A stretch of DNA of 64,000 bases. Origin: Gordonibacter sp. An230 (GTDB lineage Bacteria; Actinomycetota; Coriobacteriia; Coriobacteriales; Eggerthellaceae). Location: NCBI RefSeq assembly GCF_002159915.1, contig NZ_NFJP01000018.1:1-64000 (forward strand). The letters run 5' to 3'. The position numbers were made by a program, and so were the translations under genes. The stretch's first letter is position 1. Every line of letters begins with the position of its first letter. Shown here piece by piece: positions 31,713-64,000 of the stretch. The notes under the pieces are model-generated. The model searched no databases. It was not told the DNA's origin and saw nothing but the letters and a program-made list of their open reading frames with translations.

Positions 31713-31948
31713 CCGCAGCCCTGTCTTCGCTTCGCGCGGTCGAGAACCGGTCCGCGGCTGCACGAAGCGTGCCGGTTGCCTGTGGCCTCTAAGCGTCGAT
31801 GCAAGCACGCTTCGCTTTCCGATCCGGTGCCGGCCGAGACGGATGGTCGCCCGTTTCAAACACGGTTCCGTTGCTTTTCATGGATCCGCTGGGCGTGTCG
31901 GATCCGCAAAAGCGAGCGCGCGGATCGGGCGCGTCCGCCGATTTCCTG

Positions 31949-31977
31949 TTCCAAAAATGAGACGGTCGCTCTATACT
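31949..31977 (+). promoter_or_regulatory. Promoter of first WYL gene
   Basis: TTCCAA (31949-31954), 17-base spacer, TATACT (31972-31977); the start codon is 38 bases downstream. Confidence 0.5.
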
Positions 31978-32015: not shown

Positions 32016-33002
32016 ATGGCTGCGAACCGTCAGAAGCTCAAGCTGCTCTACCTCATGCGCATGCTCATGGAGGAAACGGATTCCGAGCGGGGGCTGACGA
32101 TGGCGCAGATGCTCGAGCGACTGGAGGAGCTGGGCGTCTCGGCAGAGCGCAAGTCGGTCTACCGCGACATCGAGGCCCTGCGCGAGTTCGGTGTGGACGT
32201 GCGCGCCTACCGGCGTTCGCCGATGGAGTATGCCGTGGAGGAACGCGATTTCGCCTTCCCGGAGCTTGTCCTGCTCGTGGACGCGGTGCAAAGCTCGCGC
32301 TTTCTCACGCAGCGTAAAAGCGATGCGCTCGTGGAGGGGGTGAAGCGTCTCGCATCTCGGCGCCAGCGCGCGCTGCTCGACAAGCGCGTGCACGTGGAGG
32401 GCCGCATCAAGATGCAGAACGAGTCGGTGTTCTACAGCGTCGACCGCATCCAAGAGGCGCTTGCGAAACGGCGCAAGATATCGTTTCTCTATTTCAAATA
32501 CGATGCAACGAAGGAGAAAGTGGCGCAGCACGGCGGCGACCGCTATGTGGAGACGCCCGTGCAGCTCGTGTACGCCGAAGGGTACTACTATTTGGTGGCG
32601 TTCAACGAGAAGCATGATGGATTCGCAACGTACCGCGTCGACCGTATGGATCGCATCCGCGTGCTCGACGAGCCGGCGGCGCGCAACGAGCGCATCGCAA
32701 CGTTCGATGCGCAGGAGCTCGAGAGCCGCGCGTTCGGCATGTACAGCGGGAGCCCGGTCGCGGCGACGCTTCTGGTGAGCGACGAGGCCATGGGCGCGGT
32801 CATCGATCAGTTCGGTCGCGATGTGAGGTCGTCGTTGGCCAGCGAGGGTTGGGCGCATGTGCATGTGACCGTCATGAAGAGCCCCGTGTTCTTCGGTTGG
32901 CTCGCGCAGTTCGGCGACCGTGTGCGCGTGGAGAAGCCGCGAGCGCTCGTCGACGAGTACCGCGACTACCTTGGCTCCATCGTGGCCTCCTACGAAGGGT
33001 AG
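32016..33002 (+). CDS. WYL-domain transcriptional regulator, copy 1
   Basis: A 328-residue regulator. An N-terminal winged helix-turn-helix (about 1-75; LTMAQMLERLEELGVSAERK, then YRDIEALREFGVD) is followed by a WYL ligand-binding domain (about 140-225; ISFLYFKYD, QLVYAEGYYYLVAF, YRVDRMDRIRVLDEP) and a WCX C-terminal domain ending VFFGWLAQFGDRVRVEKP. WYL proteins sense nucleic acid or nucleotides and often control phage-defence or DNA-damage genes. GGAGGAGCC precedes ATG 32016. It converges with the LALW protein gene, with 23 bp between stops, and is a paralogue of the WYL gene at 58.8 kb. Confidence 0.92.
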   Translation: MAANRQKLKLLYLMRMLMEETDSERGLTMAQMLERLEELGVSAERKSVYRDIEALREFGVDVRAYRRSPMEYAVEERDFAFPELVLLVDAVQSSRFLTQRKSDALVEGVKRLASRRQRALLDKRVHVEGRIKMQNESVFYSVDRIQEALAKRRKISFLYFKYDATKEKVAQHGGDRYVETPVQLVYAEGYYYLVAFNEKHDGFATYRVDRMDRIRVLDEPAARNERIATFDAQELESRAFGMYSGSPVAATLLVSDEAMGAVIDQFGRDVRSSLASEGWAHVHVTVMKSPVFFGWLAQFGDRVRVEKPRALVDEYRDYLGSIVASYEG

Positions 33003-33025
33003 GCGACGTCGCGGGCGGCGCGCGC

Positions 33026-33496
33026 TCACACCGCGCATGGCAGCGAGCGGGCGACGCTCCCGCCGAGCGCGACGCGCCCTCCGTCGTCGAGCACGGCTTC
33101 GGCGCCGACGAGCAGCCCGTCTCCGTCCGTTTCCAACGCGATGCCGATGACGGTGCGGCCGATGGCGTACGAACAGGGCCGAAAGCTCTCCCAGCGCAGC
33201 GCGCATCCTGGCGCCGCCATGGACGGCTCGGCGTTGATGGCGCCGAAGAACAGCGCGATGTGCGGCGCGCGCATCGCGAAGGCGGTGAGGTCGTGCGTCT
33301 CGAGCCTCAGGATGGTCGGCGTGCCGGGGAGCCAGGACCGTGCGCGCTCGTCCCAGAGTGCGAGCATGTCGACCACCTGTTCGCCCACGACTGAATGCGC
33401 TTGTCGTGCGCCCTCGTCGGCGAGGGCCAACGGATCGTCGAACCACCGGTGGTAGAGCCGTGCGAACGCCGTCGCGGCGTCGATGCCGCGATTCAT
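33026..33496 (-). CDS. LALW-motif protein, copy 1 (partner of HIRAN and WYL)
   Basis: A 156-residue soluble protein of unrecognised family. It shares a clear segment with the protein at 59762-60331: here VVDMLALWDERARSW followed by LRLETHDLTAF, there LADVLALWECHEGNW followed by LRFEECDLAAS. ATG 33496 overlaps the HIRAN stop by four bases, so the two are coupled and share the promoter before the HIRAN gene. A longer frame upstream would run into the HIRAN gene. The C-terminal half is rich in beta strands (TVIGIALETDGDGLLV, then AEAVLDDGGRVAL). Function unknown. Confidence 0.8.
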   Translation of the reverse strand: MNRGIDAATAFARLYHRWFDDPLALADEGARQAHSVVGEQVVDMLALWDERARSWLPGTPTILRLETHDLTAFAMRAPHIALFFGAINAEPSMAAPGCALRWESFRPCSYAIGRTVIGIALETDGDGLLVGAEAVLDDGGRVALGGSVARSLPCAV

Positions 33497-33819
33497 CGGG
33501 CATCTTTCACGAAAAGGCCCGCACGCACCTGCCTCCACGGTGCCGCCTCGGGATCCACCTGGAGGATGCGCAGCTCGAACGCGTCGGCGTGGCCGAAGCG
33601 GCTCATGAGCGCGACGAGGGGGCTTTCGTCGGCGGGCAGGTACCCGATTTTGGTTTCGCCGAGGCGCACGGCCACCGCATCGGGGTCGTGCGGGTTGTCG
33701 GGCTCAGGCGCAAGGACGAGCTCGGTTCCGGGTTTGAGCCGGTCGAGGACGAGTGCGCCGTCCCAGTGCTGGAAGCCGGCGAGGTGGAAGGTTGCAAGGT
33801 GACGTGACGGCTCGTACAT
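33493..33819 (-). CDS. HIRAN-domain protein, copy 1
   Basis: A 108-residue single-domain HIRAN protein. Hallmarks are FHLAGFQHWDGALVLDRLKP, LVLAPEPDNPHDPDAVAV and GETKIGYLP. HIRAN domains in HLTF/Rad5-type proteins bind 3' DNA ends or damaged DNA; here the domain stands alone. ATG 33819 has AAGGAGGAG upstream. TATGAT (33858-33853) with a dyad in place of a -35 box drives it. It forms an operon with the LALW gene. A second copy at 57.2 kb is broken by a stop codon. Confidence 0.88.
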   Translation of the reverse strand: MYEPSRHLATFHLAGFQHWDGALVLDRLKPGTELVLAPEPDNPHDPDAVAVRLGETKIGYLPADESPLVALMSRFGHADAFELRILQVDPEAAPWRQVRAGLFVKDAR

Positions 33820-33852: not shown

Positions 33853-33858
33853 ATCATA
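33853..33858 (-). promoter_or_regulatory. -10 box of HIRAN/LALW operon, copy 1
   Basis: TATGAT on the minus strand, 34 bases from the HIRAN start. No -35 consensus; the position is taken by the TGTCCC dyad. Confidence 0.55.
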
Positions 33859-33878: not shown

Positions 33879-33896
33879 TGTCCCATCTGCGGGACG
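33879..33896. promoter_or_regulatory. WYL-regulon candidate operator 1 (TGTCCC-N6-GGGACG)
   Basis: TGTCCC (33879-33884), ATCTGC, GGGACG (33891-33896). Twenty bases separate it from the -10 box of the HIRAN gene. The same dyad with near-identical spacing precedes the second HIRAN copy and the second LALW gene. Confidence 0.7.
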
Positions 33897-33990
33897 CACG
33901 AAAAAAAGAACATCGGTACGATAGTTGCGCAAGTTCGTGCTGACCGTGTCGGTTTGCCGAGCGCTCGGTCGAAGGGGGCAGGGCTTGCGC

Positions 33991-33996: not shown

Positions 33997-34032
33997 ACGA
34001 AGCAGGTTTTTTTGATCGGGGCGGAGGAGACG

Positions 34033-40441: not shown

Positions 40442-40711
40442 TTATGCAAGCGCGCTGGCGAACGAGACGATGGAGAATGCGATGCCGATCATCACGGCGA
40501 AAGCGCGGTCGTCGGCGCTGAGGGGGTAGGGCGCTCCCGCCATGGTCCAAGCTGGTTGGGAGCTTCGGTTTTCGACGGGTTCGACGCGGGCGTGCCGGGG
40601 GATGCTCTGCGTATCGATGCGGCCGCCCGCAATAACGCGGATCTCGGTCGCGCAGCGTCCTCTCGGGGCATGGCGCGGCGTGTCGGCTAAGACGGGTGCT
40701 ACTGTGCTCAT
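40442..40711 (-). CDS. Small hypothetical protein with C-terminal membrane helix
   Basis: An 89-residue protein. ATG 40711 has AAGGAG 6 bases upstream, which supports it as a real gene. The first ~60 residues are polar and Arg-rich; the last ~20 (AFAVMIGIAFSIVSFASALA) form one TM helix. It converges with ddh. No family is recognised. Confidence 0.55.
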   Translation of the reverse strand: MSTVAPVLADTPRHAPRGRCATEIRVIAGGRIDTQSIPRHARVEPVENRSSQPAWTMAGAPYPLSADDRAFAVMIGIAFSIVSFASALA

Positions 40712-40803
40712 GGCGGCTCCTTGCGACGCGTTTTCGAGTACGCGTGCATCATATCGTCTCGCGCATATCTAAAAGTACCAATAATGGGACATTGACGCAG
40801 CGG

Positions 40804-56056: not shown

Positions 56057-56698
56057 CTACCGGGCCGTGAATCGCTCGATCGAGAGGGCATGGCGTTTTT
56101 CGAGCGCCCAAAACGTTGCTTGGATGCTTCGCTTCTGCCAAGGAGAATGCCAGTCCTCATTGCGGGGTGCATAGACGTCGAGGACGTAATCCCAGCTGTT
56201 CACTATCGTTCGCCTCAATCTGCGCAAAGCGGGGGAGTCGAGGTCGAAGTTTCCAAGATCGAGGAAGGAAACGCCGCTGCTTTCGCATTCCAAGTCGAAG
56301 GCGACTGATTCCTCCTCGGTTTTTGAACAATGCCAGTAATTGAGGACGAAATGCCAGTCGTTGAAGTCAGACAAGAGGACAAGGTTGTCGGGGACGTCGA
56401 GCTTCATCCGGACGAGGGGTTCTCCGGGTTTGGCGTGGCCGGATCGTCGCATGTCGGGCTTGCCGTCGGTGCGTCCCTGCTGCTTGTACCAAGCCCAAAT
56501 GGGATACTCGGCTCCTTTGGGCGGCGGTCCGATCCGGGCTTCCATTTTGGAGATGAGCCACTGGTAGGCGGCATGCAGGTGAACGGTGGCGCTGTCCTGC
56601 TCGGGTGGAAACACTATGTTCTTCGGTTCGACGAGATAGCGCCCGTTCGTTTCGAGGGCGTCTAGAACAGCGGGGTGCTGGAGGGTCCAGAGGATCAT
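56057..56698 (-). CDS. DUF3841 protein
   Basis: A 213-residue protein. The N-terminus MILWTLQ, a central YQWLISKMEARIG, YPIWAWYKQQGRTDGKPDMR and VRMKLDVPDNLVLLSDFNDW are the DUF3841 landmarks (family recalled from pattern). Function is unknown. ATG 56698 follows GGGAG on the minus strand. It is the last gene of a possible minus-strand operon behind a short coiled-coil protein and a HIRAN copy, so it may belong to the WYL/HIRAN module. Confidence 0.8.
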   Translation of the reverse strand: MILWTLQHPAVLDALETNGRYLVEPKNIVFPPEQDSATVHLHAAYQWLISKMEARIGPPPKGAEYPIWAWYKQQGRTDGKPDMRRSGHAKPGEPLVRMKLDVPDNLVLLSDFNDWHFVLNYWHCSKTEEESVAFDLECESSGVSFLDLGNFDLDSPALRRLRRTIVNSWDYVLDVYAPRNEDWHSPWQKRSIQATFWALEKRHALSIERFTAR

Positions 56699-56795: not shown

Positions 56796-57107
56796 CTATA
56801 CTTTTTGGATCTGTATGCCAAAAGGCCCGCATTCGAAGGAGAGCACGGTCTTTCTTCCTTCGTCGTTTTCTTGACGGTAACCGCATGCTTTATCGGACAT
56901 GCGTTTTGCGATGTCCGATAAGCGTTCGAGATCCGATGCGAGTTGAGCGCCGGGGTTGGTTGCCGCGCGCCATTCGTCATCATTTGATCCCTCGATGAAC
57001 TCCTCGATCTCCCGGATACGGTCGATGAGCGAATCGCGCTCTTGGAGCATATCCGCATAGCTGCGGTTCTCGATGGGGGGTTGGTGCGGTTCGGGAGATT
57101 CTGACAT
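56796..57107 (-). CDS. Small acidic coiled-coil protein
   Basis: A 103-residue protein with no recognised family. Residues 15-40 (SYADMLQERDSLIDRIREIE) and 55-80 have heptad-like patterns. ATG 57107 has GAGG at moderate distance. It lies between the HIRAN copy (64 bp upstream) and DUF3841 (97 bp downstream) on the same strand. The longer frame upstream overlaps the HIRAN copy out of phase. Confidence 0.55.
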   Translation of the reverse strand: MSESPEPHQPPIENRSYADMLQERDSLIDRIREIEEFIEGSNDDEWRAATNPGAQLASDLERLSDIAKRMSDKACGYRQENDEGRKTVLSFECGPFGIQIQKV

Positions 57108-57171: not shown

Positions 57172-57507
57172 CTATGCTTTCTTTCTGGCATCGGCCATGT
57201 AGAGGCCGATGCGCACCTGCTTCCAAGGGTCGGCTTCGGGGTTTGCCTGCAGGATACGGGCTTCCAGCGCGTCGGCATGCCCGAAATGCAGCAGGGCGAA
57301 CGCCATATCGTTTTTCTCGGTTGGCAGATAACCGAGCTTCATGCCATTCGTGCGCAGGGCGACAGCGGAAGGGTCGTACGGGTTGTCCGGTTCCGGTTCC
57401 AGGACAAGGGTTGCTCCCGGCGCAAGTTCGCTGATGGCGGCTGGGCCGTCCCAATATTGGAATCCTGCAATGAAGCAGGTGGCGAGATGCCTCGATCATT
57501 CGTACAC
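57172..57507 (-). pseudogene. HIRAN-domain protein, copy 2, stop at codon 4
   Basis: Reading from GTG 57507 (GGAGG five bases upstream) the protein is VYE, a TGA stop (57498-57496), then SRHLATCFIAGFQYWDG, TLVLEPEPDNPYDPSAVAL, GYLPTEKND and a normal end at 57172. It aligns throughout with the HIRAN protein at 33.5 kb, where codon 4 is Pro. A CGA-to-TGA change would explain the stop. No later start exists before the domain. The rest of the frame is undamaged, so the lesion is recent or an error. Confidence 0.85.
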
Positions 57508-57560: not shown

Positions 57561-57584
57561 ACCTGTCCCTTTCATGGGACAGGT
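57561..57584. promoter_or_regulatory. WYL-regulon candidate operator 2 (TGTCCC-N6-GGGACA)
   Basis: A perfect dyad, ACCTGTCCC (57561-57569) and GGGACAGGT (57576-57584) around TTTCAT. Core spacing and distance to the -10 box are identical to operator 1. It lies between the HIRAN copy (leftward) and the NERD gene (rightward). Confidence 0.75.
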
Positions 57585-57708: not shown

Positions 57709-59055
57709 ATGTTCAAAAAAGCAAGGAAGGGCGGTCCGTCTTGCAAAAGGGAGGTTCCCAACTCGATCCTTCCGGACTTTTCGACGGCACAGATGGCGAC
57801 GGCGGTTTGCCCGCATTGCGAAGATCGATTCGGCATAGTGGCCATCGTCGGCAGATGGCTCGACCGCTATTGCCCTCTGTGCGGAGGGGTTTTGCGGGGT
57901 TCTTGCTACGACGGGGTGGCGCTTCGGCTTTTGCGAGAGATGAAGGGGGTCGAAATCGATCTGGCTGAGAAACGGCGAAAGAGCGATGAGGCGCGGCGTC
58001 GCGTCGATTCCCGTCGACGATGGTGGCGGATGCCCTACCGACGGTATTGGGGCCGTATGCGAGCGAAGGCCGATAGCGAGAGGGAATTGGCGAACGAGGC
58101 TCTCCGAGAGGCGCGGACCTGCTATGACGATGCCCGCTATGCGTGGTTCCGTGCAAGCGAATGGTATCCATGCACACGCGCTCCTGTCGCGAGAAGGCTT
58201 GCCGAAGGCGATTCCTACCGCCTGATTCTGGCGTATGACAAGAGTGGGCGCTTCTTTCTTAGAGGGGTCGGCCCGGCTCTTGCGGGAGGGTTGGCGGCGG
58301 AGTTCGAGGCGTTCGAGTCTTTTCAAAGGTGCGCGGAAGACCCGTCCTCTCCGTTGCATGGTGCGCGGCTCCTGCCGAACTTATGCATGCCGCGCAAGTC
58401 GAGCGGGAGACAGCCCGGACGTTTGTGGGATCAGATGGATTTGGTGGTGGCTACGGAGTCCTGCGCGTTCGCCATCGAGATCAAGAGAAGGAACGCATCG
58501 GTGCGGGTGGACGCCCCTTTCGATACGGTGCTGGTGGGAAGCGGGGAAGGCGATGATCGTCCGCTTGAAGATGCCGACTGGATGCTCGACCAGAATGCAA
58601 CGCATGCGATGGCGTTCAGCGATGCGGTGGAAGAGTATCCTTACGAAAGCATCTACGAGGTGCTGCTTTTCGTTCGTCCTCGTTCGTTCGAATCGGATGC
58701 TTCGAAGGTTTTCGCTGCCGGGGCGAAGAGGCTTGGGCCGGCCCTGCTAGAATGTCGGTTGGAGGCATTTCCCGGATGCGCGGCAAGGCGGTGTGACTTA
58801 TGGCGTATAACAGCAAGGCGAAGCTCAAGCCGTTTTATCTGCTTAAAATCCTGCAGGAGGAAACCGATGCCGAGCATGGTCTTTCCATGTCGCAGATCAT
58901 CGAGCGCCTGGGGCAATATGGCATCAGCGCCGAGCGCAAGAGCATCTACGCCGATATTGAAGTGCTGCGCGAGTTCGACGTCGATATCCGCACTTACCAA
59001 CGGAATCCCGTGGAGTACGCTATCGAGCGGCGGGACTTCTCGCTTGGCGAGCTGA
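57709..59055 (+). CDS. NERD (nuclease-related) domain protein with zinc ribbon, 3' end overlapping WYL gene
   Basis: A 448-codon frame. A zinc ribbon (CPHC and CPLC, about 37-60) and a basic coiled region (about 80-130) precede a NERD domain (about 215-330; LLPNLCMPR, GRLWDQMDLVV, AFAIEIKRRN), a restriction-fold relative. AGGAGG lies 12 bases before ATG. From about residue 360 the frame runs inside the WYL gene, and the last ~85 residues are Ser/Arg-rich shadow, so the natural end was probably near 58800; a frameshift close to the 3' end is likely. It is cooriented with WYL copy 2 and probably part of the same module. Confidence 0.7.
   Translation: MFKKARKGGPSCKREVPNSILPDFSTAQMATAVCPHCEDRFGIVAIVGRWLDRYCPLCGGVLRGSCYDGVALRLLREMKGVEIDLAEKRRKSDEARRRVDSRRRWWRMPYRRYWGRMRAKADSERELANEALREARTCYDDARYAWFRASEWYPCTRAPVARRLAEGDSYRLILAYDKSGRFFLRGVGPALAGGLAAEFEAFESFQRCAEDPSSPLHGARLLPNLCMPRKSSGRQPGRLWDQMDLVVATESCAFAIEIKRRNASVRVDAPFDTVLVGSGEGDDRPLEDADWMLDQNATHAMAFSDAVEEYPYESIYEVLLFVRPRSFESDASKVFAAGAKRLGPALLECRLEAFPGCAARRCDLWRITARRSSSRFICLKSCRRKPMPSMVFPCRRSSSAWGNMASAPSARASTPILKCCASSTSISALTNGIPWSTLSSGGTSRLAS
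58748..58753 (+). promoter_or_regulatory. Possible -10 box of WYL copy 2
   Basis: TAGAAT inside the NERD gene, 46 bases before the WYL start; the same hexamer precedes the formate dehydrogenase operon. The -35 is not clear. Confidence 0.3.
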
Positions 59056-59792
59056 TGCTCATGGTGGATGCCATCCAATCGTGCCGCGCCATCACCGAGC
59101 ATCAGGCGAGGATGCTCGTGACCAACATCAAAACGCTTGCCAACAATCACGAGCAGGAGAAGCTTGATAGGCGCATCCATGTGGCGGGGCGCATCAAATC
59201 GAAAAGTGAGAGCGTTTTCGGCAATGTCGATGCCATCCACGAGGCTCTGCGTCTGCGTCGTAAGATATCCTTTGTCTACTATCGGCGCGGCCTCGATGGG
59301 GAACGGCATGCTACGCGGGGAGGTAAGGAGCATGAGGTCACTCCGGTGGGCGTTGCCTATGCCGACGGTTTCTACTACCTTGCCGCATGGGACGACGGAC
59401 ATGCCGATATGGTTGAGTACCGCATCGACCGCATGGGCAAGGTTCGCATCCTCGACGAGCCCGCAACGCGCAATGATGAAATCGCCCGGCGCCGCTACGA
59501 GGGCGGCGATTATGAATCTTTTGGCCGCTTTGGCGGCGAGGAGGTTTCGGCGACTCTGACCGTCAAGGCTGACAAGGTGGAGATCGTGCTTGATCGCTTT
59601 GGCGATGCGGCCATTCTTTCGAAGATGGATGACAGCACCGCCAAAGCGTGCGTGAAAGTTCGGGTGAGCGAGCAGTTCTTCGGCTGGATTGCCGGCATGG
59701 GCAAAGCCGTGCAGATAGCCGCCCCGAGGTCCCTTGTCGGCAAATACCGGAATTACCTGCGCTATCTCTTAGAAGAGGATGGGGTCGGCTGA
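58800..59792 (+). CDS. WYL-domain transcriptional regulator, copy 2
   Basis: A 330-residue paralogue of the WYL protein at 32.0 kb. It shares the HTH (LSMSQIIERL, SAERKSIYADIEVLREFDVD), the WYL domain (ISFVYYRRG, GVAYADGFYYLAAW, YRIDRMGKVRILDEPATRN) and the C-terminal QFFGWIAGMGKAVQIAAP. ATG 58800 lies within the end of the NERD frame. Its 3' end overlaps the convergent LALW gene by 31 bp. It is a candidate to bind the TGTCCC dyads upstream of the HIRAN and LALW genes (inference). Confidence 0.92.
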   Translation: MAYNSKAKLKPFYLLKILQEETDAEHGLSMSQIIERLGQYGISAERKSIYADIEVLREFDVDIRTYQRNPVEYAIERRDFSLGELMLMVDAIQSCRAITEHQARMLVTNIKTLANNHEQEKLDRRIHVAGRIKSKSESVFGNVDAIHEALRLRRKISFVYYRRGLDGERHATRGGKEHEVTPVGVAYADGFYYLAAWDDGHADMVEYRIDRMGKVRILDEPATRNDEIARRRYEGGDYESFGRFGGEEVSATLTVKADKVEIVLDRFGDAAILSKMDDSTAKACVKVRVSEQFFGWIAGMGKAVQIAAPRSLVGKYRNYLRYLLEEDGVG

Positions 59793-60331
59793 CTTTCGAG
59801 CGATAGGGGAGCCGAACCCCATCGAGCTTCGATGAGGATGCGGGTTTCTTCCAAGTCGACGATAAGGCGTGCGTTGCGCTCCAAGCGGATCGACGACGCC
59901 TCCTGTCCGATGGCTTCCGATAACGTTGAGACCGTCATCCATGCGAGGCAGAGTCGGTCGTTTTGCTCTTCGGCTTCGGGAGAGCTGCTCGCAACCGCAT
60001 TTACCTTGAGCGATGTGTCCACGGCTCCTTTCCAAAGGATCAACCTCCCGTCCGGCTCGGTTGAGGCCGCGAGGTCGCACTCTTCGAATCGCAGCAGGAG
60101 GGGAGAATCGCGCGCCCAGTTGCCTTCATGGCATTCCCATAGTGCAAGGACATCTGCAAGATGCAGCGTCTCGATGTTGGCGAGGACGTCGGCGGGCGAT
60201 ACTTTGAAGGAGTCTGCGAGGACCAGGCATCCTTTCGCGTCGAATGCCGGACCGGGGTGCGAGGAGGCATCGGGAACGGATGAAGAGTCGTTTGTGCTAC
60301 CGTAGAGCGAATGCATGCCGTTCTCGGCCAT
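59762..60331 (-). CDS. LALW-motif protein, copy 2
   Basis: A 189-residue soluble protein, homologous to the protein at 33026-33496 over LADVLALWECHEGNW, SPLLLRFEECDLAAS and a C-terminal beta region (ARLIVDLEETRILIEARWG). ATG 60331 has AGGAGG upstream. It is convergent with and overlaps the WYL gene, mirroring locus 1. It has its own promoter with dyad 3. No family is recognised. Confidence 0.8.
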   Translation of the reverse strand: MAENGMHSLYGSTNDSSSVPDASSHPGPAFDAKGCLVLADSFKVSPADVLANIETLHLADVLALWECHEGNWARDSPLLLRFEECDLAASTEPDGRLILWKGAVDTSLKVNAVASSSPEAEEQNDRLCLAWMTVSTLSEAIGQEASSIRLERNARLIVDLEETRILIEARWGSAPLSLESQPTPSSSKR

Positions 60332-60366: not shown

Positions 60367-60372
60367 ATTTTA
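60367..60372 (-). promoter_or_regulatory. -10 box of LALW copy 2
   Basis: TAAAAT on the minus strand, 35 bases from the start codon, with dyad 3 beginning 21 bases upstream. Confidence 0.5.
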
Positions 60373-60390: not shown

Positions 60391-60414
60391 GCCTGTCCTT
60401 GAAGCGGGACAGGC
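60391..60414. promoter_or_regulatory. WYL-regulon candidate operator 3 (TGTCCT-N6-GGGACA)
   Basis: GCCTGTCC and GGGACAGGC arms; core TGTCCT (60394-60399), TGAAGC, GGGACA (60406-60411). It is the third copy of the dyad seen before both HIRAN genes. Confidence 0.7.
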
Positions 60415-61753: not shown

Positions 61754-62068
61754 TTAACAGCCGACTTCCTCACTGCTTTTATCGCTGCTGGCCATCTCTT
61801 CTGATTTCTGCTCTTCCAGAAGCTTGTTTATGCCATCCCTGATTCCCTCTAGCAAGGATACGAATTCGTCAAAGACCTTTTGCTTTACCTTGCCAGCATC
61901 CTGGACATCAATTTCATATTTGTTTCTAGGTTCGAAATCGAGAAGTTCGAACAGCGTCTTTGCATTGGTCGAATTGTCCTTAATGACAACCTGCTTTCCC
62001 TCGCTATTGCTAAGAACGATCTCCTCCTGCTGGTTGCCTTCTACAGTGATTTTAATTTCGCGCGCCAT
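61754..62068 (-). CDS. Small acidic partner of TrlF-like ATPase
   Basis: A 104-residue protein. The N-terminal half is a beta-rich segment (REIKITVEGNQQEEIVLSNS), the second half a helical acidic stretch (VFDEFVSLLEGIRDGINKLL, then SSDKSSEEVGC). ATG 62068 has AAGGAGG 10 bases upstream and overlaps the ATPase stop by 17 bases, so the two are coupled. No family is recognised. Low GC matches its neighbour. Confidence 0.75.
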   Translation of the reverse strand: MAREIKITVEGNQQEEIVLSNSEGKQVVIKDNSTNAKTLFELLDFEPRNKYEIDVQDAGKVKQKVFDEFVSLLEGIRDGINKLLEEQKSEEMASSDKSSEEVGC

Positions 62069-64000
62069 ACGCTTTCAACCTCCTTGCCAGAGCCTGCCGT
62101 CCGCCGTCCATGTTTTCCGCGATCCATTCAAGAGCTTCGCAGCCTTCGTCCTCGAGGCATCCAGACTTAAGCGAAAGCGAAAAGCGTCTTTTGTCGTCGC
62201 GCGAACCGGATGCGATGATCACGTTGTCTGCGTCTAGGTTGACGACGAGAAGAGGATTGTGGGTGACGAGTATAACTTGCGCCTTGTCCCTCAGTCCCTG
62301 GATTGCTGCAGATAGCTCTTTGGAAATCTTTAGGTTAGAGATGTTGTCTTCGGGCTGGTCGATAAGTAGCACATCTGCCTGGGTCACATTTTGATCGAGC
62401 AAGACTTCGTAATATATTAGCGCCTTTTCGCCGAAAGTGTTGCCGATAACTCGTTCTGAGGTGCTCTGGCGTTTAACCTCCTGCTCCGTTTTGCAAAGAG
62501 AATCCAGAAAAGACTCGAGGTTCTTCTTGACTGCTTCGTCGATCTTGTCGACCTGCCTAGTTCCCCTGACGGCGTTGCACAAGGATTCCTCCGCATCGAT
62601 TTTTTCGATAGCGGCTTTGTCGAATCCGTCGTTGAACAGGGACTTGTAGAATTCCTCTTCAATCTCTTCGGCTGTTTTGGTCACGTATGGAGCGTAAGAC
62701 CTGAAGACATATCCGCCAGCACGTTTATCCACGTAGCCGATACCCTGGTCGTAGTATTTCGACAGAGAAGGGAAGGAAGGGTACTCCTTTTTGATGTCCA
62801 GAGACGCCTGCGCTTGCTGAATGACCTTCAAGATGACCGCTTGCTTCAGCGTGCTATAGCTTTCGGCTTGTCGATCGAGATTCGTTGAGGTTCTATTCGT
62901 GCTAGCCTTGTACTGCGTAATCGAGGTGAGGATGACGTTCTCGACGGAGCTGAACAGTCTTTCGGAGGCCAGTCTTTTCTCGACAGAAGACAAGGCATCA
63001 TTTAACGAAGCCAGTGCCTCATTCAGGCTCTTCAATTCGTCAGGGGCGTATATGAGTTCGTTGTCTTCGATTTCGGTTTTTAGCTGCGTGATAATTGACC
63101 TCAATGCCGCAAAGCGATTTTCGAGCTGCGAGCAGTCTCTTGCCGCGAAGCCTTCGGTTGACACGGATACAAAGAACGTCTTGCGTAGGTATTCCTCCTT
63201 CACGGTCAAGGCGCTGCTTGCGGCTTCGTCAAGCGTTTTCTTTGCTCCTGTGCGCCTGCGCACCCACTCCATTACTCGATTTGTGAACGTTGTGATTTGC
63301 AATCTGAAGTCCTGGCAGTTAACTTCGGAAAAAAGAGAGCGCCCGTCAGGGTACAGGTCTTTATTGTTGTTGTAGTCGTTAAATAGCTCACCTTGGAATA
63401 CCGCCTTGCTCCTACTTGGCAGGGCGGGTATCTCGATTCGGTTATTCCTTTTTGCTGCTTTAACATGGCTCTCCGAATCGTTTCCTGAAATAAGCTTAAG
63501 AAGTGTTGATTTGCCCGATCCGTTTTCTCCAATGATGACGTTCACCCCGGGGCTAAGTTGCATATCAACGCCATTTACGCTTACTTTTTCCAAGAATGGA
63601 TAAGAGACACTGTCGATTCTTCCAAATCTGGTTTCGGGCGAAGTGATTGCGAGCAGCAAACCCCTAAACGAGGGAAGGGCTCTGATGGTGGTGAAGACTG
63701 GGGCGCCTTGTCTGACGTTCTTGGAGTCGTGGTTGGGATATGCGGCCCATTCGTGACAGTCGATGCCGATAAGCAAGCCGATGGAATTGCAGAACTCGCT
63801 CATGTCGACCAGATTGTTTTTTACAATGCCTTCCACATTAGGGCTCTGAATCTCAATTGCGCTAATGTAGCCAATTTCCAAGTAGTCCAAAAAATCCGAG
63901 CAGGCATCGCTGAAAGAATTGGCGCCGCCCTTTTGCTCGGGATCAAGGCTCTTCCTTTGATATGCAACCAAAATGACAGGAAGTTTAATTTCCTTAAGAA
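62052..64000 (-). CDS. TrlF-like PHP/AAA ATPase, N-terminus beyond window
   Basis: The frame is open to the right edge, so the 5' end is missing. The visible ~649 residues start with the end of a PHP-like domain (LLIGIDCHEWAAYPNHDSKN, RALPSFRGLLLAI). An SMC/ABC-type ATPase follows: Walker A VIIGENGSGKSTLLKLI (about 160), a long coiled region (300-480) and Walker B VLLIDQPEDNISN with ILVTHNPLLVV (about 560-610). This order fits TrlF-family ATPases, linked to defence or DNA-end processing in other bacteria. GC is near 47%, far below the rest, pointing to horizontal transfer. Confidence 0.8.
   Translation of the reverse strand, partial: LKEIKLPVILVAYQRKSLDPEQKGGANSFSDACSDFLDYLEIGYISAIEIQSPNVEGIVKNNLVDMSEFCNSIGLLIGIDCHEWAAYPNHDSKNVRQGAPVFTTIRALPSFRGLLLAITSPETRFGRIDSVSYPFLEKVSVNGVDMQLSPGVNVIIGENGSGKSTLLKLISGNDSESHVKAAKRNNRIEIPALPSRSKAVFQGELFNDYNNNKDLYPDGRSLFSEVNCQDFRLQITTFTNRVMEWVRRRTGAKKTLDEAASSALTVKEEYLRKTFFVSVSTEGFAARDCSQLENRFAALRSIITQLKTEIEDNELIYAPDELKSLNEALASLNDALSSVEKRLASERLFSSVENVILTSITQYKASTNRTSTNLDRQAESYSTLKQAVILKVIQQAQASLDIKKEYPSFPSLSKYYDQGIGYVDKRAGGYVFRSYAPYVTKTAEEIEEEFYKSLFNDGFDKAAIEKIDAEESLCNAVRGTRQVDKIDEAVKKNLESFLDSLCKTEQEVKRQSTSERVIGNTFGEKALIYYEVLLDQNVTQADVLLIDQPEDNISNLKISKELSAAIQGLRDKAQVILVTHNPLLVVNLDADNVIIASGSRDDKRRFSLSLKSGCLEDEGCEALEWIAENMDGGRQALARRLKAYGARN

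Follow-up and report, generated by a model that had tools for sequence, protein, structure and literature searches.

Introduction

The closest described relatives of the system reported here are two groups of transcription regulators built around WYL domains, summarized below from the accessible parts of the cited papers. PafBC activates DNA-damage genes when single-stranded DNA (ssDNA) binds its WYL domains (PMC11804915), and SiwR uses a 19-bp palindrome (PMC10693628). BrxR and CapW control defense operons (PMC9122601, PMC13373217) and respond to ssDNA (PMC13373217); BrxR binds inverted repeats, and its homologues co-localize with defense systems in 48% of cases (PMC9122601). Prokaryotic HIRAN domains, for their part, have been called uncharacterized (PMC11090510). 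Here we analyze a 64,000-nucleotide stretch of Gordonibacter sp. An230 DNA (contig NZ_NFJP01000018.1, positions 1 to 64,000, referred to in its entirety as the window), part of a 3.88-Mb assembly that is 96.7% complete, in which genes for a WYL regulator, for a small protein that we call LALW and for a stand-alone HIRAN protein are found together at two places. On a balance of evidence that tips slightly in its favor, we propose that these genes belong to a WYL-run nucleic-acid-stress regulon of the Eggerthellaceae, apparently LexA-independent, with LALW and HIRAN as its operator-driven effectors.

Like PafBC, SiwR and DriD, the system joins a WYL regulator to DNA-metabolism genes, with promoters that have no -35 element and a motif or palindromic operator near the core promoter (PMC11804915, PMC10693628, PMC12340889). 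Unlike PafBC and SiwR, which according to the accessible parts of those papers act at -26, it has its HIRAN and LALW operators at -41.5 or -42.5, in the form of a different, 18-bp palindrome, and unlike all three its putative effectors are LALW and HIRAN, which are new here. With BrxR and CapW it appears to share WYL genes that head restriction operons (five loci), an inverted-repeat operator and co-localization with restriction (PMC9122601, in part); unlike the BrxR and CapW systems, most loci that we looked at are not recognizable defense operons, the regulator is convergent with LALW and the operator position suggests activation. The system has features of both WYL groups, but the position of its operator, its genes and their arrangement set it apart from either. 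A limited search of the open-access literature on WYL with HIRAN, or on Eggerthella with WYL, returned neither the module nor the operator, and the accessible part of the CoCoNuTs paper does not describe the module.

Results and Discussion

Genes of the two copies

The two copies consist of the following genes (window coordinates; lengths in amino acids, aa):

32016 to 33002, + strand: WYL1, 328 aa, transcription regulator with WYL and WCX domains (Pfam, tree)
33026 to 33496, - strand: LALW1, 156 aa, predicted NFACT-N/Fpg-like fold (profile, predicted structure)
33493 to 33819, - strand: HIRAN1, 108 aa, stand-alone HIRAN protein whose stop overlaps the LALW1 start (Pfam)
57172 to 57507, - strand: HIRAN2 frame, an interrupted copy with a GTG start at 57507 and TGA as codon 4 (57496-57498)
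58800 to 59792, + strand: WYL2, 330 aa (Pfam, tree)
59762 to 60331, - strand: LALW2, 189 aa from its likely start, overlapping the 3' end of WYL2 by 31 bp

All of the WYL, LALW and HIRAN genes that the original prediction had placed at 32.0-33.8 and 57.2-60.3 kb were located, and Pfam supports the WYL and HIRAN assignments, with expect values (E) for the WYL and WCX domains of 2.6e-14 and 1.8e-11 in WYL1 and of 1.7e-12 and 2.4e-6 in WYL2. At the N-terminus, the helix-turn-helix family HTH_11 matches WYL1 under its cut-off (E 0.0063) and Pfam gives no such match for WYL2. HIRAN1 and the HIRAN2 frame score 43.7 and 52.5 bits against PF08797 (HIRAN), above the cut-off of 24.7, and the rest of the assembly has no HIRAN match at E <= 0.001. 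The HIRAN proteins considered here are about 108-120 aa long and are not fused to helicases; their genes either precede LALW on the LALW strand or diverge from WYL.

The gene arrangement was also described correctly. WYL1 and LALW1 converge, their stops separated by 23 bp; LALW1 starts at 33496 rather than 33538, so that its ATG overlaps the HIRAN1 TGA as ATGA; and the 31-bp overlap of WYL2 and LALW2 is exact. LALW2 most likely starts at 60331 (MAENGMH...), judging from its homologues. The HIRAN2 frame reads V-Y-E-stop-SRHLATCF, most homologues starting with MYEPSR. Neither window regulator heads a defense operon, WYL1 being alone on its strand and WYL2 being preceded by a NERD-like gene.

The LALW family and its pairing with WYL

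In order to delineate the family we searched 138 genomes of the Eggerthellaceae and then 297 genomes of the order. Homologues are found in 21 of the 138 family genomes with LALW1 as query and in 44 with LALW2, and the profile built from the matches converges on 54 members that include both window proteins (E 8.7e-60 for one and 7.5e-55 for the other), establishing that the two are related, as had been supposed; a direct search of the genome with LALW1 misses LALW2 at E 0.001. No family was recognized at the outset and none has emerged, LALW1 and LALW2 giving no match at E <= 0.1 in Pfam, PHROGs, NCBIfam or PADLOC and LALW2 a single chance Pfam match at E 0.25. Among the 297 genomes of the order 44 carry a LALW match, of which 37 are in the family, 5 are credible matches from other families and 2 are marginal (G185 and G318, E 8.8e-4, with stops) and were left unused. 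This search added seven members, five of them from outside the family, for a total of 61, and LALW is nearly confined to the Eggerthellaceae within the order searched. A pattern scan with LALW1 that reached outside the order gave four loci; LALW2, used as sole query, has no match in 72,556 plasmid and 50,697 phage records. Alignments were made of 53 of the 54 profile members (A1; L079, nearly identical to L080, was left out), of 27 (A2) and of 43 (A3), and one Arg, one Asp and one Trp are near-invariant in the family.

The neighbors of LALW are enriched for both WYL, strongly, and HIRAN, as anticipated, with the counts below referring to the 61 LALW loci, which share descent and so cannot be taken as independent. 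In 49 loci there is a WYL gene 3' of LALW, and in 48 of these it is convergent: in 39 the two genes stand tail to tail (gap of -147 to +71 bp), in 9 the convergent WYL gene is 0.5-10.6 kb downstream, and in one further locus (L148) the WYL gene is on the same strand. The remaining 12 have no WYL gene within the stretch examined, some of them lying at contig ends (L094, L146). WYL genes are scarce, with 0-3 per genome and any at all in 34 of 40 sampled genomes, and the genes that flank LALW and WYL vary from locus to locus, so that the pair itself is what persists. Restriction operons separate LALW from WYL in five of the nine spaced loci (L157, L158, L167, L169, L171), metabolic-type genes do so in L112, and L174, L175 and L176 have a short insert or gap.

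HIRAN accompanies LALW in 23 loci, always on the LALW strand, either upstream of it as in copy 1 or beyond WYL as in copy 2; the HIRAN gene of L036 is internally deleted and those of L088 and L091 are cut by contig ends. Where there is no LALW match, WYL and HIRAN are divergent in L151, L153, L154 and L155, on one strand in L152 and apart in L156. Copy 1 of the window is syntenic with Gordonibacter and Eggerthella, next to an oxidoreductase cluster. Clusters of small peptides, which we take to be of the Nif11-leader-like kind, lie near LALW-WYL in L085, L089, L099 and L101.

A shared operator and its promoter geometry

An 18-bp palindrome, TGTCCC-N6-GGGACA, is concentrated upstream of the WYL, HIRAN and LALW genes. 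Enrichment was evaluated over 75 loci, in which promoter zones account for 54,574 of 1,175,667 bp (4.6%). When all 4096 half-sites are combined with 13 spacers (0-12), TGTCCC with a spacer of 6 ranks first, with 22 promoter-zone matches in 19 loci, where 0.31 would be expected, and 9 matches outside. Sites with at least 11 of the 12 letters fall in promoter zones in 23 of 31 cases (reversed motif, 0 of 0) and those matching 10 of 12 in 60 of 118 (reversed motif, 2 of 31), and 47 of the 75 loci contain one or more sites within these zones. The concentration spans genera and extends to another family (L145), and it includes WYL-HIRAN loci that have no LALW. In the Gordonibacter genome itself five sites depart from the palindrome by no more than one letter, and three of them are the promoters of HIRAN1, HIRAN2 and LALW2. 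The sites and -10 hexamers of the window are as follows:

31947 to 31964, + strand: weak operator upstream of WYL1, TGTTCCAAAAATGAGACG, 9 of 12 letters, with TATACT 7 bp on (31972-31977)
33879 to 33896, no strand assigned: operator O1 of HIRAN1-LALW1, 11 of 12 (motif match)
33853 to 33858, - strand: -10 hexamer TATGAT, 20 bp after O1 (motif match)
40774 to 40791, no strand assigned: operator O4, 10 of 12, 20 bp before TATGAT (40753-40748)
57564 to 57581, no strand assigned: operator O2, perfect, the sole perfect copy in the 3.88-Mb assembly, with TATCAT (57543-57538) 20 bp towards HIRAN2
60394 to 60411, no strand assigned: operator O3 of LALW2, 11 of 12 (motif match)
60367 to 60372, - strand: -10 hexamer TAAAAT, 21 bp after O3 (motif match)

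At LALW and HIRAN the spacing between operator and -10 hexamer is fixed. Of the sites with at least 10 of 12 letters, 29 are upstream of LALW and 20 upstream of HIRAN, and a TANNNT hexamer follows at 20 or 21 bp in 27 of the former and 18 of the latter. This amounts to 41 of 44 distinct sites (5 are on both lists, and some come from near-identical loci); in 500 shuffles the highest count that a single spacing reached is 4. Placing the hexamer at -12 to -7 puts the center of the HIRAN and LALW operators at -41.5 or -42.5, which is the position of a class II activator. Sites O1-O4 all show this layout, giving five matches as O1 reads both ways, whereas 20 pair-shuffled windows average 0.05 matches and never have more than 1. 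On its + side O1 has TACGAT at 20 bp, towards an oxidoreductase gene at 34012 (33879-33922), and could drive both directions. Upstream of WYL the layout is different: TATACT follows the operator by 5-7 bp in seven loci, mostly of the Gordonibacter/Eggerthella type, elsewhere the layout varies, and only some WYL promoters put the operator near -26 to -28. The layout of the weak WYL1 site matches that of stronger sites before some sister WYL genes.

The possibility that the palindrome is a LexA box was rejected on the basis of the lexA promoter of this one genome, which contains two GAAC-N4-GTTC boxes and no TGTCCC-N6-GGGACA.

The proposed wider regulon

Combining operator and hexamer into a full promoter pattern, TGTCC-N8-GGACA-N20/21-TANNNT, gives 88 matches in 47 of the 138 family genomes, versus 7 for the backwards pattern. 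A hand count places 30 of the 88 just upstream of LALW or HIRAN. For the others the gene was read in fetched loci only; in some relatives those downstream of the promoter encode DnaB, a dGTPase, a C5 methylase, an ADP-ribosylglycohydrolase, SbcD (with a divergent DUF2779 protein) and a small R-V-I-P-G-G protein with a hydrophobic tail. The other matches examined have no clear gene, and some of the remainder will be chance. A gene of similar kind occurs in the window:

40442 to 40711, - strand: small protein, 89 aa, carrying R-V-I-A-G-G and hydrophobic at its C-terminus, operator O4 upstream

It is likely a further target of the same operator, and perfect sites precede the similar gene in L177-L179. 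In a congener (G002) with no LALW match the gene for this kind of small protein, with a perfect operator, is the one that converges with WYL. In L166 an operator separates WYL from a divergent gene for a Y-family polymerase, and WYL-HIRAN adjoins SbcC-SbcD in L154 and Cas12a and Cas1 genes in L153. In the latter (L153:1330-8782) HIRAN is followed by genes for a 335-aa protein, Cas12a, a Cas4-like protein, Cas1 and a Cas2-like protein, all divergent from WYL, with Cas12a and Cas1 assigned by Pfam and the Cas4-like and Cas2-like proteins by eye. A 313-334-aa protein, encoded after HIRAN or the same promoter in L202:1573-2574, L180:4699-5688 and L154:10131-11072, looks alike by eye in the three loci and has no Pfam match in L202; it is a possible further member of the regulon.

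Predicted fold of LALW

Structure models of LALW1 and LALW2, with predicted local distance difference test (pLDDT) scores of 90.6 and 87.6, respectively, were aligned to Foldseek candidates, most of the resulting rows being shared by the two. Both resemble the part of RqcH, Tae2, NEMF and FbpA that we take to be the NFACT-N domain, over 105-117 residues and with 7-15% identity. For the LALW2 model the top 9 rows are all of this type (Z 9.2-7.6, 105-113 residues, root-mean-square deviation 3.4-4.3), the next unrelated row has Z 4.6 and one MutM row has Z 4.2. For LALW1 the top 11 rows are again of the RqcH/Tae2/NEMF/FbpA type, in a middling range of Z 7.7-4.7, and 35 of the other 39 are MutM/Fpg (Z 2.0-3.3). 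The mannose lectins that head the Foldseek rows for LALW1 (E 0.05) were set aside, being absent from the 50 entries of the finer alignment.

Searches at the sequence level and of other libraries add little: the best match of LALW to the sequences of solved structures has E 0.25, with no NFACT or Fpg chain among 8 rows, and a viral structure library gives nothing at E <= 0.001 for LALW2. Unlike the NFACT proteins, LALW stands alone, without the other NFACT parts. In the Fpg/MutM glycosylases the active site needs an N-terminal Pro-Glu, and LALW has none, LALW1 beginning with MNRG and LALW2 with MAEN if the starts given above are right. NFACT-N is related to Fpg/MutM/Nei, according to the accessible part of PMC6514570. 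What the models provide is a resemblance to the NFACT-N fold, not proof of kinship or function.

Mobile elements, restriction cargo and neighboring genes

In four loci (L157, L158, L167, L171) a module of xis, integrase, ribbon-helix-helix (RHH) and, in some cases, a further integrase gene ends in LALW, which is faced by a WYL-first operon, and in L157, L158 and L167 Pfam detects relaxase genes beyond. The guaA gene lies upstream of the module in L045, L102, L105, L107 and L109 (integrase and guaA by Pfam in L102, elsewhere by similarity). The cargo between LALW and WYL varies, comprising a type I restriction operon in L157, GmrSD-like and IIG/ISP genes in L158 and L171, GmrSD and type III genes in L167 and a methylase with GmrSD in L169, a locus with no integrase in the part examined. 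In L168 a McrBC component faces LALW and there is no WYL gene.

In the WYL tree the nearest row to WYL2 is the L157 WYL protein that heads the type I restriction operon, and both belong to a 10-row set (99/97) inside a 17-row clade (98/95) made up of all 6 cargo-locus rows, 8 tail-to-tail rows, 2 LALW-less rows and 1 other; WYL1 groups with tail-to-tail rows of the Gordonibacter/Eggerthella type (the WYL rows of L079 and L080 are identical). Just past the window end are an integrase (PF00589) in two frames (L110:4729-6063), a small HTH-like protein and an HTH_3 regulator, and with its integrase broken up in this way the putative element of copy 2 is probably immobile. The notion of a two-copy module has to be qualified: WYL1 and WYL2 group with different rows, and copy 2 has an interrupted HIRAN and lies beside a split integrase. 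The DNA from LALW2 to the integrase remnant (window 61754-64000 and L110:1755-4410) encodes a TrlF-family-like AAA ATPase, which matches NCBIfam TrlF at E 3e-39, below the cut-off of that family, and whose start looks PHP-like by eye, as well as a 104-aa small partner, possibly further defense cargo.

Three other genes lie next to copy 2:

56057 to 56698, - strand: DUF3841 protein, 213 aa (Pfam E 3e-34)
56796 to 57107, - strand: coiled-coil-like protein, 103 aa (open reading frame, ORF)
57709 to 58799, + strand: NERD-like protein (PF08378 E 0.065, under cut-off)

The NERD-like frame continues beyond 58799 to 59055, out of frame with WYL2, and its true end is unsure. All three had been listed as companions of the module. 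NERD is a weak case, with homologues adjoining LALW in two further loci (L029:8595-10853 and L091:6422-7717). No counterpart of the coiled-coil or the DUF3841 protein turned up in any other locus searched; both were rejected as core parts and look like local neighbors.

Mechanism and alternative explanations

The mechanism that we favor is as follows. WYL would be a ligand-sensing transcription factor that binds TGTCCC-N6-GGGACA. As the operator at HIRAN and LALW promoters sits at -41.5 or -42.5 in place of the -35 element, bound WYL would recruit RNA polymerase and activate transcription, and as the operator at the WYL promoter of one lineage is 5-7 bp from the -10 hexamer WYL would control itself as well. 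By analogy with PafBC, DriD and CapW/BrxR, the likely signal would be single-stranded or damaged DNA. The products would act on nucleic acid, HIRAN probably as a DNA-binding protein and LALW, if its models are a guide, as a small stand-alone NFACT-N/Fpg-like domain. In other species the same promoter would drive dnaB, sbcD and the genes for dGTPase, C5 methylase and a small, presumably tail-anchored, membrane protein, and on mobile elements a WYL-first restriction operon that ends facing LALW may place defense genes under WYL control. The putative role in DNA damage or defense suggested in the original prediction fits the operator and regulon evidence.

Several observations weigh against this mechanism. 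HIRAN is missing from 38 of the 61 LALW loci as examined and HIRAN2 is interrupted, so that HIRAN is not essential. The 27 WYL-upstream sites with at least 10 of 12 letters are weaker and have no dominant spacing (4 are at 7 bp), and the site of WYL1 itself reaches only 9 of 12. Perfect palindromes number 36, in 29 of the 138 genomes, whereas the reversed pattern gives 14; by hand count no more than 6 of the 36 are at LALW or HIRAN, so that a perfect palindrome does not by itself single out the module. In 6 of 20 stretches with perfect palindromes that were inspected the site falls within a called ORF, and at two mismatches there is no excess across the Gordonibacter genome (92 vs 121 for the reversed control). 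The full promoter does not clearly track WYL, being matched in 16 of the 34 genomes that have a WYL gene and in 1 of the 6 that have none. An operator of at least 10 of 12 letters precedes LALW in only one of the five cargo loci (L157) and precedes WYL in none, leaving control of the cargo by this site unsupported, and Foldseek gives LALW1 no match at E <= 0.001. The modest family-wide enrichment of the palindrome and the cargo loci without a site before WYL have lowered our confidence slightly.

Three other explanations have to be considered. WYL might be a repressor of the BrxR/CapW type that holds down HIRAN, LALW and restriction cargo until released by ssDNA, LALW and HIRAN then being accessory anti-phage proteins. 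Five loci with restriction operons that start with such a WYL gene argue for it, as does the match of HIRAN1 to the C-terminal part of the PADLOC family PDC-M03B, and so do, in the accessible parts of the papers, the defense co-localization and inverted-repeat binding of BrxR (PMC9122601) and the ssDNA response of CapW/BrxR (PMC13373217). A fixed operator at -41.5 or -42.5 without a -35 element, however, is in the position of an activator and not the usual one of a repressor; some relatives have the promoter in front of dnaB and sbcD; and in 16 tail-to-tail loci inspected by eye defense-type neighbors are present only in L091 (methylase, GmrSD-like) and L085 (TIR-like), a count weakened by unannotated ORFs. 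On these grounds we consider repression rather unlikely. More unlikely still is that some other factor binds the palindrome and that WYL and LALW are adjacent for a separate reason, for example because LALW binds WYL and the two form a toxin-antitoxin or anti-regulator pair. The link from WYL to the site is indeed indirect, a tail-to-tail layout is unusual for a regulator and its target, the WYL-upstream sites are weak and there are perfect palindromes outside the module. Such a factor would nevertheless have to accommodate the concentration of the operator at WYL, HIRAN and LALW promoters across genera, in the second family and in the WYL-HIRAN loci that have no LALW, and the operator-free lexA promoter of this genome.

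The pair might, finally, be mainly a set of bookends of integrative elements that carry exchangeable restriction cargo, with the other copies as relics. The short LALW genes that follow xis-integrase-RHH(-integrase) downstream of guaA, the relaxase genes on the far side in three loci, the cargo enclosed between LALW and WYL in five and the integrase remnant beside window copy 2 are all consistent with such a role. Set against them are the 39 pairs that stand tail to tail with nothing in between, the synteny of copy 1 beside the oxidoreductase cluster, the examined part of L169 with no integrase and the plasmid and phage records with no LALW2 match, and we regard it as improbable. The WYL-run regulon is in our opinion the simplest explanation. 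A bolder version of it, which we hold only tentatively and would call doubtful as a whole, is that this is a second, LexA-independent DNA-stress network of the Eggerthellaceae, that WYL is its activator at TGTCCC-N6-GGGACA, that LALW, as a free-standing NFACT-N/Fpg-like domain, is a new class of nucleic-acid effector and that the tail-to-tail WYL-LALW junction is a docking slot for restriction operons brought in by mobile elements and placed in this way under a host stress switch.

Concluding Remarks

Eggerthella, Gordonibacter and their relatives are drug- and steroid-metabolizing gut bacteria. For all of these the present analysis provides a concrete, testable candidate for a stress and defense circuit, in which operator and promoters are defined and which includes a new protein family. 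Further members can be sought by a simple DNA signature. One regulator may, in these organisms, link DNA-damage control and restriction systems.

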